Positions 24,183 through 28,936 of a stretch of 64,000 nt of DNA are shown here, one piece after another. The notes beneath the pieces are model-generated. The model was not told the DNA's origin. It ran no database searches and worked only from the letters and a program-made list of their open reading frames with translations. Within the stretch, counting starts at the first letter, position 1; every line of letters starts with the position of its first letter. The stretch is from Clostridiales bacterium (GTDB lineage Bacteria > Bacillota > Clostridia > Saccharofermentanales > Saccharofermentanaceae). A program made the translations under genes and the position numbers. The stretch covers positions 124,001-188,000 of the forward strand of contig JAFWMQ010000005.1 in assembly GCA_017510605.1 (NCBI GenBank), given 5' to 3'.

Positions 24183-25286
24183 ATGAAGCTGCGCAGAAAA
24201 CTATTTGCAAGTAAAGATCCATACGACTGCACGAAGCCGCAGTTGTTTCTAGATGCGTGCAAAGAGAATATTGATTACCTGATCACACATTGTGACGACT
24301 ATAAGAAGATTGCTGACGGGCTTGGCGTTCACACGGCAGAAGACATTGCATGCCCCGAAGATATTCCCGTTATTCCGACCATGCTTATGAAGCAGCACGA
24401 TTTCAGGGCGGGGCGTTATTTGGTAATGGCTACGTCGTCGGGGACGAGCGGGAAAAAGAGTCACGTGCGTTTCGAGTTTGGTGCGCTGATGGCGGCGCTT
24501 AAGATGTCGATCAGAGTGACGAGATATCATGGTATCATGACCGCGAAGCCGTGCCGCTACATCGTTATGGGTTACAAGCCTCACAGGTCCAATAAAACAG
24601 CGGTGGCAAAGACTGCATATCTTACGACTTTTCTGGCGCCTGCGATCAGCCGCAAGTTTATATTGAAGCACACGCCGGACGGTTACAAACCTGATTTCGA
24701 GAGCATCGTAAATGCGCTCAGGAAATATGAGAAGGGCAAGGCCCCGGTGCGTTTCATGGGGTTCCCGTCGTATACGTTTTTCCTGTTCAGGATCCTGGAG
24801 GAGAGAGGGCTTTCCTTCAAACTTCCGAAGGGTTCCAAGGTCATGCTCGGAGGCGGATGGAAGCAGTTCTATCAGGAGGCTGCAGACAAGGAGACGTTCT
24901 ATAAACTCGCGAAAAAAACGCTCGGTATCGAAGAGGAAAACATCGTCGAATTTTTCGGTGCCGTCGAGCATCCGATCCTTTATACCGATTGCGCTTATCA
25001 CCACTTTCATGTGCCGGTTTACAGCAAGATCGTCATCCGAGATCCCGATACTCTTGAGCCTCTCGGGAACGGTCAGACCGGCCTTGTAAATCTCATATCA
25101 CCGCTCTGCAGGGCGACGCCGATCCTGTCAGTCATGACGGACGATCTCGGCATCTTACACAACGGAGAAGAATGCCCGTGCGGAGTCAGATCGCCTTATC
25201 TAGAGATCGTCGGACGCGTTGCTCCCGATGACATCAAAACGTGTGCCGCAGGTGCCGCTGACATTCTCCAGGGGGTGAAGGTATGA
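24183..25286 (+). CDS. luxE: LuxE-like acyl-protein synthetase
   Basis: 367 aa, close to the 370-380 aa of LuxE. The adenylation motif SSGTSGKKSHVRFE lies near residue 85 and FFGAVEHPILYTDCAYHHFHVP near residue 260. A Cys 13 residues from the C-terminus (Cys354 in DDIKTCAAG) sits where LuxE enzymes carry their acyl-accepting Cys. LuxE activates a fatty acid with ATP and passes the acyl group to LuxC. The stop overlaps the luxC start (ATGA). No luciferase (luxAB) or luxD is present, so the product is an aldehyde for some non-luminous use. Confidence 0.88.
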   Translation: MKLRRKLFASKDPYDCTKPQLFLDACKENIDYLITHCDDYKKIADGLGVHTAEDIACPEDIPVIPTMLMKQHDFRAGRYLVMATSSGTSGKKSHVRFEFGALMAALKMSIRVTRYHGIMTAKPCRYIVMGYKPHRSNKTAVAKTAYLTTFLAPAISRKFILKHTPDGYKPDFESIVNALRKYEKGKAPVRFMGFPSYTFFLFRILEERGLSFKLPKGSKVMLGGGWKQFYQEAADKETFYKLAKKTLGIEEENIVEFFGAVEHPILYTDCAYHHFHVPVYSKIVIRDPDTLEPLGNGQTGLVNLISPLCRATPILSVMTDDLGILHNGEECPCGVRSPYLEIVGRVAPDDIKTCAAGAADILQGVKV

Positions 25287-26578
25287 TCCTTTTCGACGGC
25301 AAAACATATGAGAGTTCCGAACAGGACAGACTCCTGACAGAGCTTGGCGAGAAGATCCCGAAGATCCTCTCGCAGAAGCAGTTGTCCCCTGAAGTTGTCA
25401 TCGACGCAGTTGAGCAGCTGCGCGTCGATCTGCTGAAGGGCAGATTCGATGACCTGCTGACGTCATTTCCCGAAGACACCGTGGAGACATATAAGAAGCA
25501 GGCAGAGGCGCTTTTGTCCAAAAAACATCTGCACCAGAAGCTCGCGACTGAGCTTGGAAATACTGAAGAATACACGACAGATAAGATTGAAGGTTTCGCA
25601 CAGATAAGAGTTAAGAAAATGCCTTTGGGCGTGCTCTTCCACATCGCTGCGGGCAACATGGATTTCCTTCCCGCATATTCTCTCGCTGAAGGCCTCATGA
25701 CCGGCAACATCAACATCTTAAAGCTTCCGTCCGCTGACAACGGCCTGTCGTTGAAACTCATCATGCAGCTCATCGAATACCGACCGGAACTGAAGGATTA
25801 TATCTACGTTTTTGATACGGCATCAACTGACATCCAGGGCATGCGCAAGATGGCTGAACTCAGCAATGCGATAAGCGTTTGGGGCAGCGACATGGCAATC
25901 GAAGCCGTGCGCGGTCTTGCTCCGACAGGCGCGAAAATAATCGAGTGGGGTCAGAAGCTCGGCTTCTGCTATGTATCGAAGCTCGAAAAAGTCGCAGATG
26001 CCGATGAAGAGCTCGCAGGCCTTGCAAAACACATCGCAACAACGAAGCAGCTCCTTTGCAGCAGCTGCCAGGTCATCTACATTGATACTTCTGATATGGG
26101 CGAGATCAAAGCATTTGCAGAGCGTTTCCTGCCTGTCCTTGAGACGGCCGTGAACGGAAATGCAACACAGGAGATTGGTATCCGCGCGAGGGATACACTC
26201 GTCTCATACACGCAGAGACTTAAGAGTTATCTAGGTGAAGAGGAGAAGCATGAGAACGTGCTTCGCGGAAGATCGTGCAGCCTGATCATTGCATCCGATA
26301 GTGCTCTTGAGTTGTCGCCCATGATGTGCAACGTCCTCGTAAAACCTCTGCCCCGTAAAGACATGGGAAAAGTGCTTTATGAATCAAGATATCATCTCCA
26401 GACCGCAGGTCTGATCTGCCCTCCGGCAGACCGCGCGGAACTCGCAGAACTCTTCACTCAACTGGGTCTCATCCGTGTCACCAAAGGCGCCGACATGAGC
26501 GCATATTTCCCGGGCGAATGCCACGACGGCGAGTATGCGTTGAACAGGTACATGCGGGTAGTGAATGTGGAGGAATAA
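25283..26578 (+). CDS. luxC: LuxC-like acyl-CoA/acyl-protein reductase
   Basis: 431 aa, of the LuxC branch of the aldehyde dehydrogenase superfamily, which reduces enzyme-bound acyl groups to aldehydes with NADPH. Recognisable segments are KMPLGVLFHIAAGNMDFLPAYSLAEGLMTGNINILKLPS and SVWGSDMAIEAVRGLAPTGAKIIEWGQKLGFCYVS. Cys residues in KQLLCSSCQVIYID are candidates for the thioester nucleophile. It is translationally coupled to luxE. Confidence 0.88.
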   Translation: MILFDGKTYESSEQDRLLTELGEKIPKILSQKQLSPEVVIDAVEQLRVDLLKGRFDDLLTSFPEDTVETYKKQAEALLSKKHLHQKLATELGNTEEYTTDKIEGFAQIRVKKMPLGVLFHIAAGNMDFLPAYSLAEGLMTGNINILKLPSADNGLSLKLIMQLIEYRPELKDYIYVFDTASTDIQGMRKMAELSNAISVWGSDMAIEAVRGLAPTGAKIIEWGQKLGFCYVSKLEKVADADEELAGLAKHIATTKQLLCSSCQVIYIDTSDMGEIKAFAERFLPVLETAVNGNATQEIGIRARDTLVSYTQRLKSYLGEEEKHENVLRGRSCSLIIASDSALELSPMMCNVLVKPLPRKDMGKVLYESRYHLQTAGLICPPADRAELAELFTQLGLIRVTKGADMSAYFPGECHDGEYALNRYMRVVNVEE

Positions 26579-26778: not shown

Positions 26779-26862
26779 AGTAATATCCTGTGACTGTTTT
26801 TCGATTTTAGGAACAATAAACTACAAACAACTGTCAAAAAGTAATATTTTGTGACTGTTTTT
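26779..26862. repeat. Two-unit repeat, 61-bp period
   Basis: AGTAATATCCTGTGACTG at 26779 recurs as AGTAATATTTTGTGACTG at 26840, each followed by TTTTT. AACAGT/ACTGTT words flank the units, giving hairpin potential. Its design (two units about 61-64 bp apart) resembles the repeats at 28949-29054 and 41039-41144. Confidence 0.5.
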
Positions 26863-26937
26863 AAAAATCTGTAACAGGCAAAAAACAGGACACAGGAAAT
26901 TGCACAAATAAACAAGGGGAAACTTTTACCGGCATTT

Positions 26938-26990
26938 GGGGAAGCGCTGATCGGATTACATGCGCACATCTTGATGAGATCAGCGCTTCC
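26938..26990. repeat. Short palindromic element with 13-bp inverted repeats
   Basis: GGAAGCGCTGATC and GATCAGCGCTTCC are exact inverted repeats enclosing about 27 bp. The outer sequence GGGGAAGCGCTGAT resembles GGGGAAACACTGAT at the left end of the 27297-27461 element, so the two may be relatives of one MITE-like family. Confidence 0.5.
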
Positions 26991-27098
26991 TATTTGCCAC
27001 ACGTAGTGTAACACTGAACTCCGTTGGAAATGCGTGAAGGGTGGGTGAAGGGTGAGTCAAAACTGCGTGATTATAGTGACGGACATTTTACAAAACGC

Positions 27099-27127
27099 TT
27101 GACGCGCTATAAGTCATGTTGTATTAT
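27099..27127 (+). promoter_or_regulatory. Promoter of the ABC-F leader
   Basis: TTGACG (27099-27104), 17 nt, TATTAT (27122-27127). Transcription would begin near 27134. Confidence 0.75.
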
Positions 27128-27162
27128 CACGGCGTAAAAATCTGACAAACGGAGGGACACCA

Positions 27163-27183
27163 ATGAGGAAGACGATCTGCTGA
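27163..27183 (+). CDS. Leader peptide MRKTIC for ABC-F attenuation
   Basis: A six-codon ORF (ATG AGG AAG ACG ATC TGC TGA) eight nucleotides after GGAGG and about 30 nt from the predicted transcription start. Its codons 3-6 form the 5' arm of the terminator at 27169-27217, so a ribosome held on it would stop that terminator from folding. This is the arrangement of inducible ribosomal-antibiotic resistance leaders. The peptide itself is not conserved with any I can name. Confidence 0.6.
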   Translation: MRKTIC

Positions 27184-27217
27184 AGTTTATAAACTGCCTC
27201 GCGGATAAGTCTTTTTT
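27169..27217 (+). terminator. Attenuator T1 overlapping the leader ORF
   Basis: AAGAC (27169-27173) pairs with GTCTT (27209-27213) and ATCTGC (27175-27180) with GCGGAT (27201-27206), with inner hairpin AGTT-TATA-AACT (27184-27195), followed by a run of six T (27212-27217). Confidence 0.65.
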
Positions 27218-27244
27218 GTGTGTTCATTTATATTGCAATAGTTC

Positions 27245-27279
27245 AAGCCGCGGCCGCAACGACGTTGTCGCGGCTTTTG
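27245..27279 (+). terminator. Attenuator T2
   Basis: AAGCCGCG (27245-27252) pairs with CGCGGCTT (27269-27276), with inner CAACG-A-CGTTG, followed by TTTT. GCGG in the 3' part of T1 could compete for its 5' arm. Confidence 0.65.
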
Positions 27280-27296
27280 ATTTATCCGGCAGAGGA

Positions 27297-27461
27297 TTGG
27301 GGGAAACACTGATTAATCCTGACGCACGTCCTGGCGGCCGATTTCACGCCTGATGTACGGTCATAATTCTTGGAATACACTCGTATTCCTTCGGATTCTG
27401 ACCTAATCATCCGCAAAATCTGCTTGCCACGCCGCACATCACGATTCATCAGCTTTTCCCG
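27297..27461. repeat. 165-bp element with imperfect terminal inverted repeats
   Basis: The left end GGGGGAAACACTGATTAATC pairs imperfectly with the right end GATTCATCAGCTTTTCCC. A small hairpin GGAATAC-ACTC-GTATTCC lies inside at 27372-27389. It fills the space between the attenuator and the ABC-F gene. It could be a MITE-like insertion or a further part of the leader RNA. Confidence 0.45.
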
Positions 27462-27475
27462 AAAGGAGAATCATT

Positions 27476-28936
27476 ATGCCAGTGATTAACATTAACAATT
27501 TAACATTCGGATACGACGGGTCTGAGAAGACTTTATTTGATGACGTCACCATTACTTTAGATACAAGCTGGAAACTCGCTCTGGCAGGCCGCAACGGCAG
27601 GGGCAAGACGACGTTCTTTAAGCTTTTGAGAGGTGAATTGCCCTACGGCGGAACCATCACGGGCGTGCCGGAGACGATACTTTTTCCAATGTCTGAACTG
27701 CCCGAAAATGAGGACTGGAGAGTGCGCAAAGAACTTAATCTGATGGGTGCAGATCCTGATATTATGTGGCGTCCGATGGATACGCTCTCGGGCGGTGAGC
27801 GCACCAAGCTGATGCTCGCAAATCTTTTCGCATCAGACGGAATATATCCTCTTATCGACGAGCCCACAAACCATTTGGACAGGCAGGGAAGAGAGGCGGT
27901 TGCCGACTATCTGTCGACGAAGGACGGCTTCATCCTGATCTCGCACGACCGTGCGTTTTTGGACCGTTGTACTGACCACACACTGGTTATTACGAAGACC
28001 GGTCTTGAGCTCGTCAATGCAACATATTCGGTTTGGTGGGAGAATAACGAACAGCGTATGGAAAGCGAGCGCGCCAGGAACGACCAGCTCAAGAAAGAGA
28101 TGAGTTCCATCGATGCTGCGATGAAGAAAAACGCGCAATGGTCTAACAAGGCTGAAGGTTATAAGAACAGGAGCAAGGCGCCGTCGAAGGTCGCAGAAGA
28201 TCATTTCAGAAGAGCATTTGAAGCTGAGAAAGCACGTAAACTGATGTCTGCTTCGAAGAATCTCGAGAGGCGCAATGAACGCAAACTCGAAGAAAAACAG
28301 AGTCTTCTTAAAGATCTTGAACGCTCGGAAAAGCTCAAGATCACAGGCACGGAGCACCACAACAGGACCCCTGTAATTCTTAAGGATGTGACACTGCTCC
28401 GATACGGCGAGCCGGTTGTTACGGGGTTTAATCTGACTGTCGAGCGCGGCAGCAAGATATCCCTTCAAGGCAAGAACGGATGCGGCAAGAGTACTTTGAT
28501 CAAGTATCTTGCGGGGCTGGGAGATTCCGAAGGTATAACTGCCGAGGGTGATATCTATATCGCTCCGGGCTTGAAGATCTCTTACGTCGGGCAGGATACT
28601 TCATCTTTGAACGGATCGCTATACGATATTGCGGGTGAACGCGGTGCCGACAAGACAATCTTTTCGACGATCCTGATCAAGATGGGCTTTACCAAGGAGA
28701 TGCTCTACCGCGATGTCTCCGCGTTGTCTCTCGGGCAGAAAAAGTTCGTCATGATTGCGCTGTCGCTTTGCGAGCACGCCGATCTCTATCTGTGGGACGA
28801 GCCGCTAAACTACATTGACGTATATCTCAGGCAGGAGATCGAGCGTCTGGTCAAGGACAACAATGTCACGATGCTTTTCGTTGAGCACGACCGCACCTTC
28901 TCGGAGGCCGTAGCCGACAGGGAAGTAAAGATGTAA
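27476..28936 (+). CDS. ABC-F ATPase, Lsa-type ribosomal protection protein
   Basis: 486 aa, two ATP-binding domains and no membrane segments. Domain 1: Walker A GRNGRGKT, signature LSGGERTK, Walker B LIDEPTNHLD. A charged coiled linker of about 80 residues (roughly 185-290) is the antibiotic-resistance domain. Domain 2: Walker A GKNGCGKST, signature LSLGQKKF, Walker B LWDEPLNYID. The length and the asymmetric second domain fit the Lsa/Vga group, which displaces lincosamides, streptogramin A and pleuromutilins from the ribosome. The attenuator leader upstream supports a resistance role. AAAGGAG precedes the ATG. Confidence 0.9.
   Translation: MPVININNLTFGYDGSEKTLFDDVTITLDTSWKLALAGRNGRGKTTFFKLLRGELPYGGTITGVPETILFPMSELPENEDWRVRKELNLMGADPDIMWRPMDTLSGGERTKLMLANLFASDGIYPLIDEPTNHLDRQGREAVADYLSTKDGFILISHDRAFLDRCTDHTLVITKTGLELVNATYSVWWENNEQRMESERARNDQLKKEMSSIDAAMKKNAQWSNKAEGYKNRSKAPSKVAEDHFRRAFEAEKARKLMSASKNLERRNERKLEEKQSLLKDLERSEKLKITGTEHHNRTPVILKDVTLLRYGEPVVTGFNLTVERGSKISLQGKNGCGKSTLIKYLAGLGDSEGITAEGDIYIAPGLKISYVGQDTSSLNGSLYDIAGERGADKTIFSTILIKMGFTKEMLYRDVSALSLGQKKFVMIALSLCEHADLYLWDEPLNYIDVYLRQEIERLVKDNNVTMLFVEHDRTFSEAVADREVKM

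Follow-up and report, generated by a model that had tools for sequence, protein, structure and literature searches.

Known attenuators of ABC-F genes

Two-level attenuation of ABC-F genes is already known (PMC9226507, PMC10201436), and a stalled ribosome has likewise been shown to obstruct a terminator directly (PMC10314930). In Bacillus subtilis, vmlR is preceded by the three-codon upstream ORF (uORF) MIN, replaced by MRK in other Bacilli, and is controlled by transcription attenuation together with a hairpin that sequesters its Shine–Dalgarno (SD) sequence (PMC9226507). The chromosomal ABC-F gene cplR of Clostridioides and Clostridium follows the uORF MR[I/M] and combines transcriptional and translational control (PMC10201436). 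The leader of msrD encodes MsrDL, a macrolide-specific arrest peptide that stalls at the stop codon, where the stalled ribosome obstructs a single terminator (PMC10314930). The lsaA leader of Enterococcus faecalis carries the uORF MAGN (PMC10201436).

The leader described here precedes an Lsa-like ABC-F gene and displays the features of vmlR- and cplR-type attenuators, namely an SD-led predicted uORF, putative intrinsic terminators and mutually exclusive helices. Its likeness to vmlR covers the ABC-F gene, the short uORF, a presumed drug-stalled ribosome, the two proposed levels of control and, in part of the leaders, an alternative helix predicted to open an SD hairpin. By description, the two differ in layout: vmlR has its uORF within an anti-antiterminator, and one terminator is broken by an antiterminator of its own, whereas here the ORF is itself an arm of the first terminator, two terminator-like hairpins are present, and the freed arm would pair beyond both of them, at the SD. 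With cplR, the locus has in common a chromosomal Clostridial ABC-F gene, a short uORF and, as proposed below, two-level control. In cplR, however, a single stem-loop serves both as terminator and to sequester the main SD, whereas here the termination and SD hairpins are separate and joined through a long-range helix, P3. The six-codon ORF and a stalled ribosome that would directly obstruct the terminator recall msrD; in contrast to MsrDL, whatever follows codon 3 of the peptide seems to be dispensable, and translational control is predicted as a further layer. LsaA, the nearest solved relative of the encoded protein, is compared by uORF only (MAGN versus M[RK]xx[IVF]C here).

The ABC-F gene and its surroundings

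The window, i.e. the whole stretch of 64 000 nucleotides that was analysed, belongs to a genome of 2.9 Mb (G000); among named relatives, those nearest to it are MAGs from the rumen that carry the label Saccharofermentans or Ruminococcaceae. Its ABC-F gene is defined by two features:

27476–28936, forward strand: gene for an Lsa-like ABC-F ribosomal-protection ATPase of 486 aa, assigned by profile matches and closest solved relative
27463–27473, forward strand: SD region of the ABC-F gene (AAGGAGAATCA), read directly and by folding as the 3′ strand of helix P4

The protein passes the curated cut-off of NCBIfam NF000355 for ribosomal-protection ABC-F proteins (403.4 bits; cut-off 380). It fails that of NF000167, the Lsa family proper (518 bits; cut-off 750), though this is still its best-matching family, and its closest solved relative is Lsa(A) (7nhk, 362.8 bits). 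The gene is therefore called Lsa-like only, and the Lsa-type ABC-F gene that the initial annotation placed downstream of the leader is retained in that sense. It is a ribosome-protection gene by profile match, with antibiotic resistance as its probable role. Just upstream of it, two adjoining genes (24183–26578) weakly resemble LuxE acyl-protein ligase and LuxC acyl-CoA reductase, with scores of 102.6 and 47.4 bits, far under the cut-offs. An imperfect direct repeat (TAATATCCTGTGACTGTTTTT / TAATATTTTGTGACTGTTTTT) lies at 26782–26870, 5′ of the leader promoter.

Layout and conservation of the leader

The leader contains, from promoter to second hairpin:

27099–27127, forward strand: promoter TTGACG-17-TATTAT, with transcript start expected near 27134; −35 and −10 are kept in relatives
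27151–27161, forward strand: leader SD GGAGGGACACC, a strong SD, of which 27155–27160 can pair with 27220–27225 (leader-SD lock)
27163–27183, forward strand: leader ORF MRKTIC (ATG AGG AAG ACG ATC TGC TGA); an SD and a short ORF occur in 63/63 leaders
27169–27180, forward strand: A5, the 5′ arm of hairpin T1 (helix P1), AAGAC.ATCTGC, identical to leader codons 3–6, defined by folding and conservation
27201–27217, forward strand: A3, composed of the T1 3′ arm GCGGATAAGTCTT (27201–27213) and the U-tract T6 (27212–27217), also the 5′ side of P3
27220–27225, forward strand: GTGTTC, partner of the leader SD flank 27155–27160; 97% of cells paired, with little variation
27245–27278, forward strand: T2, a second hairpin (hairpin proper 27245–27276) with a short broken U-tract (TTTTGATTT), a putative second terminator

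Promoter, MRKTIC ORF, T1 and T2 can be read directly where the initial annotation had put them, and the leader that holds them recurs in the genus. Automated scans are less informative. The consensus promoter scan alone yields three promoters where 3.9 are expected, i.e. no more than by chance, and the terminator scanner applied to the window listed neither T1 nor T2, whose loops both exceed its rule. As promoter and terminator scans alone were no better than chance, conservation was used as evidence. In the aligned upstream regions of orthologues, the −35, −10, SD, ORF, T1 3′ arm, GTGTTC, T2 and pre-SD segment are kept while the spacers drift, among them the one between −35 and −10.

With a covariance model built on 26 leaders of the genus, 66 of 85 genus genomes yield a single copy of the leader each (E 3e-25 to 1e-8), and the matches sit just 5′ of independently located ABC-F genes. 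This recurrence excludes chance and, judged by its conservation, the leader is real and selected. Outside the genus, the covariance model gives only weak or chance matches and no credible leader; matches in G363, G133 and G130 are marginal, and the one in G237/L201, at the start of a 171-aa ORF, is due to chance. No Rfam family matches in the window.

Terminator-like hairpins T1 and T2

The whole 152-nt leader folds better than 200/200 shuffles (z −3.3). T2 (27245–27276) has a folding energy of −18.8 kcal/mol and its U-tract is weak in the window; the T1 U-tract is U5–U6 in most leaders. A structure comprising P1, T2 and the SD-flank helix shows seven cells changed on both sides, a number matched by 0/500 shuffles. 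Own partners outperform swapped partners for P1 (p 0.013), and T2 has two pairs with changes on both sides. We infer that T1 and T2 act as terminators in the window. T1 is not a terminator in every species, since in the basal clade L124–L127 the U-tract of P1 is mostly short or missing; T2 carries T6 there. This clade suggests that termination at P1 is a derived trait.

The helix between the leader SD flank (27155–27160) and GTGTTC (27220–27225) is likely a real pairing, with a swap test significant over all pairs (p 2e-5) but not over the five distinct SD flanks (p 0.20). The deep-branching leaders L124–L127 (G065, G013, G080 and G021) have the SD GGAGGTAGACC, and the flank partner after T1 is also altered in them (e.g. 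GGTA with TACC in L124). These flank changes give a hint that the leader SD itself is sequestered in the off state.

An anti-T2 pairing between A3 and the T2 5′ arm was considered and rejected. About 7 bp are possible when only half of T2 has emerged, but A3 and T2 strands of one leader match no better than strands exchanged between leaders (p 0.29 and 0.40), hence without covariation; this pairing is therefore not claimed. Stalling on the leader ORF does not explain the passage of T2, which may simply be leaky.

A third strand in front of the ABC-F SD

Beyond T2, two further elements lie ahead of the gene:

27279–27295, forward strand: D, composed of the distal arm GATTTATCCG (27279–27288) and GAGG (27292–27295), partner of A3 in P3 or of the ABC-F SD in P4
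27296–27455, no strand assigned: hairpin-forming insertion of ∼160 bp, lying 3′ of D and 5′ of the ABC-F SD, defined by the alignment of relatives and by folding

D lies directly before the ABC-F SD in most relatives. P3 is formed by 27197–27200 and 27202–27211, on the A3 side, with D, and in the window comprises 10 bp plus a 4-bp extension (CCTC/GAGG). As P1 and P3 share A3, they are mutually exclusive. The P3 duplex is present in every leader examined. Own partners are favoured over swapped partners with z −7.1 for 26 unique strands and, in a larger set of 34 unique strands, with −18.7 versus −14.6 kcal/mol (z −8.6, 0/50,000 permutations); these tests count unique strands as independent, the phylogenetic tree being outside their model. 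In an automatic alignment, 10 cells of the structure combining P3 and T2 show changes on both sides, a count that 0/500 shuffles reach.

Distinct complementary P3 helices fall in separate clades of the ABC-F protein tree. Both strands are altered together in L115 (GCGGAAAGTC/GATTTTCCGC), L120 (GCGGAGAATC/GATTCTTCGC), L126 (CGGCGGAG/CTCCGCCG) and L122 (CTTGCGGAG/CTCTGCAGG); L116 carries an added CACG/CGTG extension, and L124–L127 pair GCGGCGGA with TCCGCCGC-like partners. By this pattern, compensatory changes have preserved P3 across many clades. For P4, in which D and its flank pair with the main ABC-F SD, the swap test gives z −3.4 to −4.3.

The position of D constrains what P3 can do. Since D lies 3′ of T1 and T2 alike, P3 is limited to acting on read-through mRNA, and lying beyond T2 it cannot help RNA polymerase past that hairpin. 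Its target is most likely translation, with mRNA stability as the alternative. A covarying third strand just before the ABC-F SD thus indicates that control is probably also translational, and the models make such a layer likely, though not for every species alike.

The insertion at 27296–27455 is missing from most relatives, and a form of ∼50 nt occupies the same site in L047, L049 and L075. Its outline is GGGGAAACACTGAT ... ATCAGCTTTTCCC, with an inner hairpin GGTCATAATTC...GGATTCTGACC. A mobile repeat was considered for it and rejected, as neither BLAST nor a pattern search found a second copy in the genome. A similar palindrome (GGGGAAGCGCTGATC...GATCAGCGCTTCC) occurs at 26938–26991, 5′ of the promoter, and has its start motif in common with the insertion at 27296. 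The initial annotation had missed both this ∼160-bp insertion (27296–27455) and the pairing of 27155–27160 with 27220–27225. The predicted fold of the window returns D to the ABC-F SD region despite the insertion, with the SD core 0.73 unpaired. With the insertion, the SD is predicted to be largely exposed from the outset; the translational lock is therefore possibly weak in this genome, and transcription attenuation may be dominant in the window's own copy.

Folding under a ribosome footprint

For vmlR, an initiating ribosome gives a toeprint at +16, and lincomycin and retapamulin stall initiating ribosomes (PMC9226507). Here, 63 leaders were folded in silico with a footprint masked, which covered everything from the leader 5′ end up to position +16 relative to the AUG of its ORF. 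The mean number of T1/P1 pairs falls from ∼10.8 without a ribosome to ∼0.1 with the footprint. Conversely, P3 of at least 6 bp is predicted in 0/63 leaders without a ribosome versus 50/63 with the footprint. Mean predicted exposure of the ABC-F SD rises from 0.32 to 0.41, with a clear gain in 23/63 leaders and a drop in six. In the deep leaders L120, L123 and L125, the unpaired fraction of the SD goes from 0.01, 0.17 and 0.15 to 0.77, 0.75 and 0.46, respectively, on the switch to P3. Together with the stalling precedent of vmlR, this folding indicates that a ribosome stalled at the leader start would prevent T1 and free A3. It agrees with the proposal of the initial annotation that a ribosome stalled on the ORF would block T1. 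The ribosome-mediated attenuation proposed there stands as regards the ORF and the blocking of T1; it falls short in having missed the third strand D, with control probably also translational.

A probable switch acting at two levels

The leader probably works as a two-level ribosome-mediated switch, combining transcription and translation attenuation, in which A3 is passed between A5 and D. The parts, their conservation, their mutual exclusivity and their compensatory evolution are observed here. Without drug, ribosomes would clear the tiny leader ORF, and A3 and A5 would form the U-tailed T1, ending transcription. In transcripts that escape, A3 would stay locked and the free D would fold on the ABC-F SD (P4); many of these transcripts would also meet T2. 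If ribosomes were halted at the start of the leader ORF by a drug, expected to be a lincosamide, a pleuromutilin or a streptogramin A, they would cover A5, so that T1 could not form and RNA polymerase would read on. The freed A3 would then capture D (P3), which would keep T1 from re-forming and take D off the SD; translation of the ABC-F gene would thereby become possible.

Transcription attenuation could also act by itself, with the stalled ribosome blocking T1 and P3 just guarding against T1 re-forming or stabilizing the mRNA. The U5–U6 tract of T1 in most leaders, the precedent of MsrDL, where the stalled ribosome obstructs the terminator (PMC10314930), and the small mean gain in predicted SD exposure are all in keeping with this simpler reading. 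It is nevertheless unlikely, given that D, located at the SD, shows covariation with A3 as well as with the SD region, and that a large opening of the SD is predicted in L120, L123 and L125.

The leader ORF and the probable sensor

Among the 63 compared leaders, all with an SD, the short ORF has six codons in 60 and three codons in three. MRKTIC is encoded by 33/63, and Cys is last in 59/60 of the six-codon ORFs. Codons 3–5 are variable (K/E/T/V/N/M/A, T/I/V/A and I/V/F/S/R, respectively). Three-codon ORFs occur in two lineages (MKR in L071 and L142, MRK in L124), and the P1 arm, ATCTGC or TTCTGC, is retained outside the ORF in L071 and L124 and lost in L142. As the arm outlives ORF shortening in L071 and L124, conservation of the last two codons mostly reflects RNA pairing. 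The initial annotation was right that the ORF nucleotides are one arm of the terminator-like T1, an arm kept in relatives. MRKTIC seems hardly to matter as a peptide and to be dispensable beyond codon 3. The variable peptide, the cut ORFs and the arm kept in two of three of them point to a ribosome halted at or near the leader start codon as the likely sensor. Searches of the open-access literature for MRKTIC, or for Saccharofermentans together with ABC-F, gave no match.

That MRKTIC is a sequence-specific arrest peptide with conserved amino acids, like MsrDL (MYLIFM), is accordingly a rather improbable reading. The frequency of MRKTIC and the nearly invariant final Cys speak for it, as do the Cys-ended outgroup leaders MKKISC, MYIISC and MFRFSC. 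Yet the last codons are the RNA arm that pairs with A3, codons 3–5 vary, and the ORF is down to three codons in L071, L142 and L124, with the RNA arm kept in L071 and L124. Moreover, other leaders from Clostridia encode just MK or MN, and TTCTTGC is not part of their ORF. Very improbable is a riboswitch-type attenuator sensing a ligand or a protein, with an incidental ORF: it would fit a strongly structured and conserved leader, but not the SD, ATG and early stop kept in 63/63 leaders, the missing Rfam match or an arm placed within the ribosome footprint of the AUG. Two constitutive terminators insulating the gene from upstream transcription, without any switch, are scarcely credible even though T1 and T2 are plain hairpins, because both lie downstream of the conserved promoter and the ORF and the exclusive covarying P3 would be purposeless.

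Related leaders of other Clostridial Lsa-type genes

Lsa-type genes of other Clostridia have leaders that differ in sequence and follow the same logic of an arm, an anti-arm and, further downstream, the arm once more. Such leaders are found in L080, L082, L084, L085, L088, L090, L091, L095, L100, L101, L104 and L113. Their uORFs include MK, MN, MKK, MRR, MRKFSC, MFRFSC and MYIISC, and the arm is TTCTTGC or TTCCTGC. Exact 7-base triples behind SD-preceded ORFs occur in 9/34 Clostridial loci versus 0/680 shuffled regions. Read by eye, the second arm copy seems to lie inside a U-tailed hairpin in L080, L082, L088 and L095, which appears to be the classical antiterminator arrangement. Leaders L080, L084, L085, L088, L090, L091 and L113 have in common with the present one a short uORF, an arm downstream of the AUG, an anti-arm and a second copy. 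The difference is that in other Clostridial leaders the second copy appears to be in a U-tailed hairpin, whereas in this genus it is 3′ of T2, at the SD, and P1 has, in most species, gained a U-tract. Collectively, these leaders apparently form a widespread group of attenuators among Clostridial Lsa-type genes, undescribed in the literature searched.

It is tempting to go further and to regard the two-level switch as a member of a distinct class of leader switches of Clostridial Lsa-type ABC-F genes, a tentative proposal that may well prove too broad. In such a class, the conserved sensor would be the nucleotides under a start-stalled ribosome and not the peptide, and A3 would pass from that arm to a copy of it, which could sit in a terminator (antitermination) or else, as in this genus, 3′ of two terminators and close to the SD. 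One stall would open transcription and then translation, and in this genus an anti-antiterminator hairpin would have become a terminator. What is new is the leader family, the ORF as terminator arm together with a long-range helix that spans a second hairpin, and the apparent selection on the RNA arm and not on the peptide.

Implications

If the proposed switch is true, ABC-F ribosome protection would be inducible in a common group of Clostridia from gut and rumen, where any drug freezing ribosomes at a start codon would set it. Evolution would then keep the RNA wiring and not the leader peptide, which would explain the strong divergence of the uORF peptides of ABC-F genes. A search rule free of peptide homology would also follow: one would look for an arm lying within about +6 to +18 from the uORF AUG, for the matching anti-arm and for a repeat of the arm. 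Finally, leaders whose second copy is found within a terminator in some cases and at the SD in others would constitute a natural series of rewired switches in which the evolution of attenuators may be followed.
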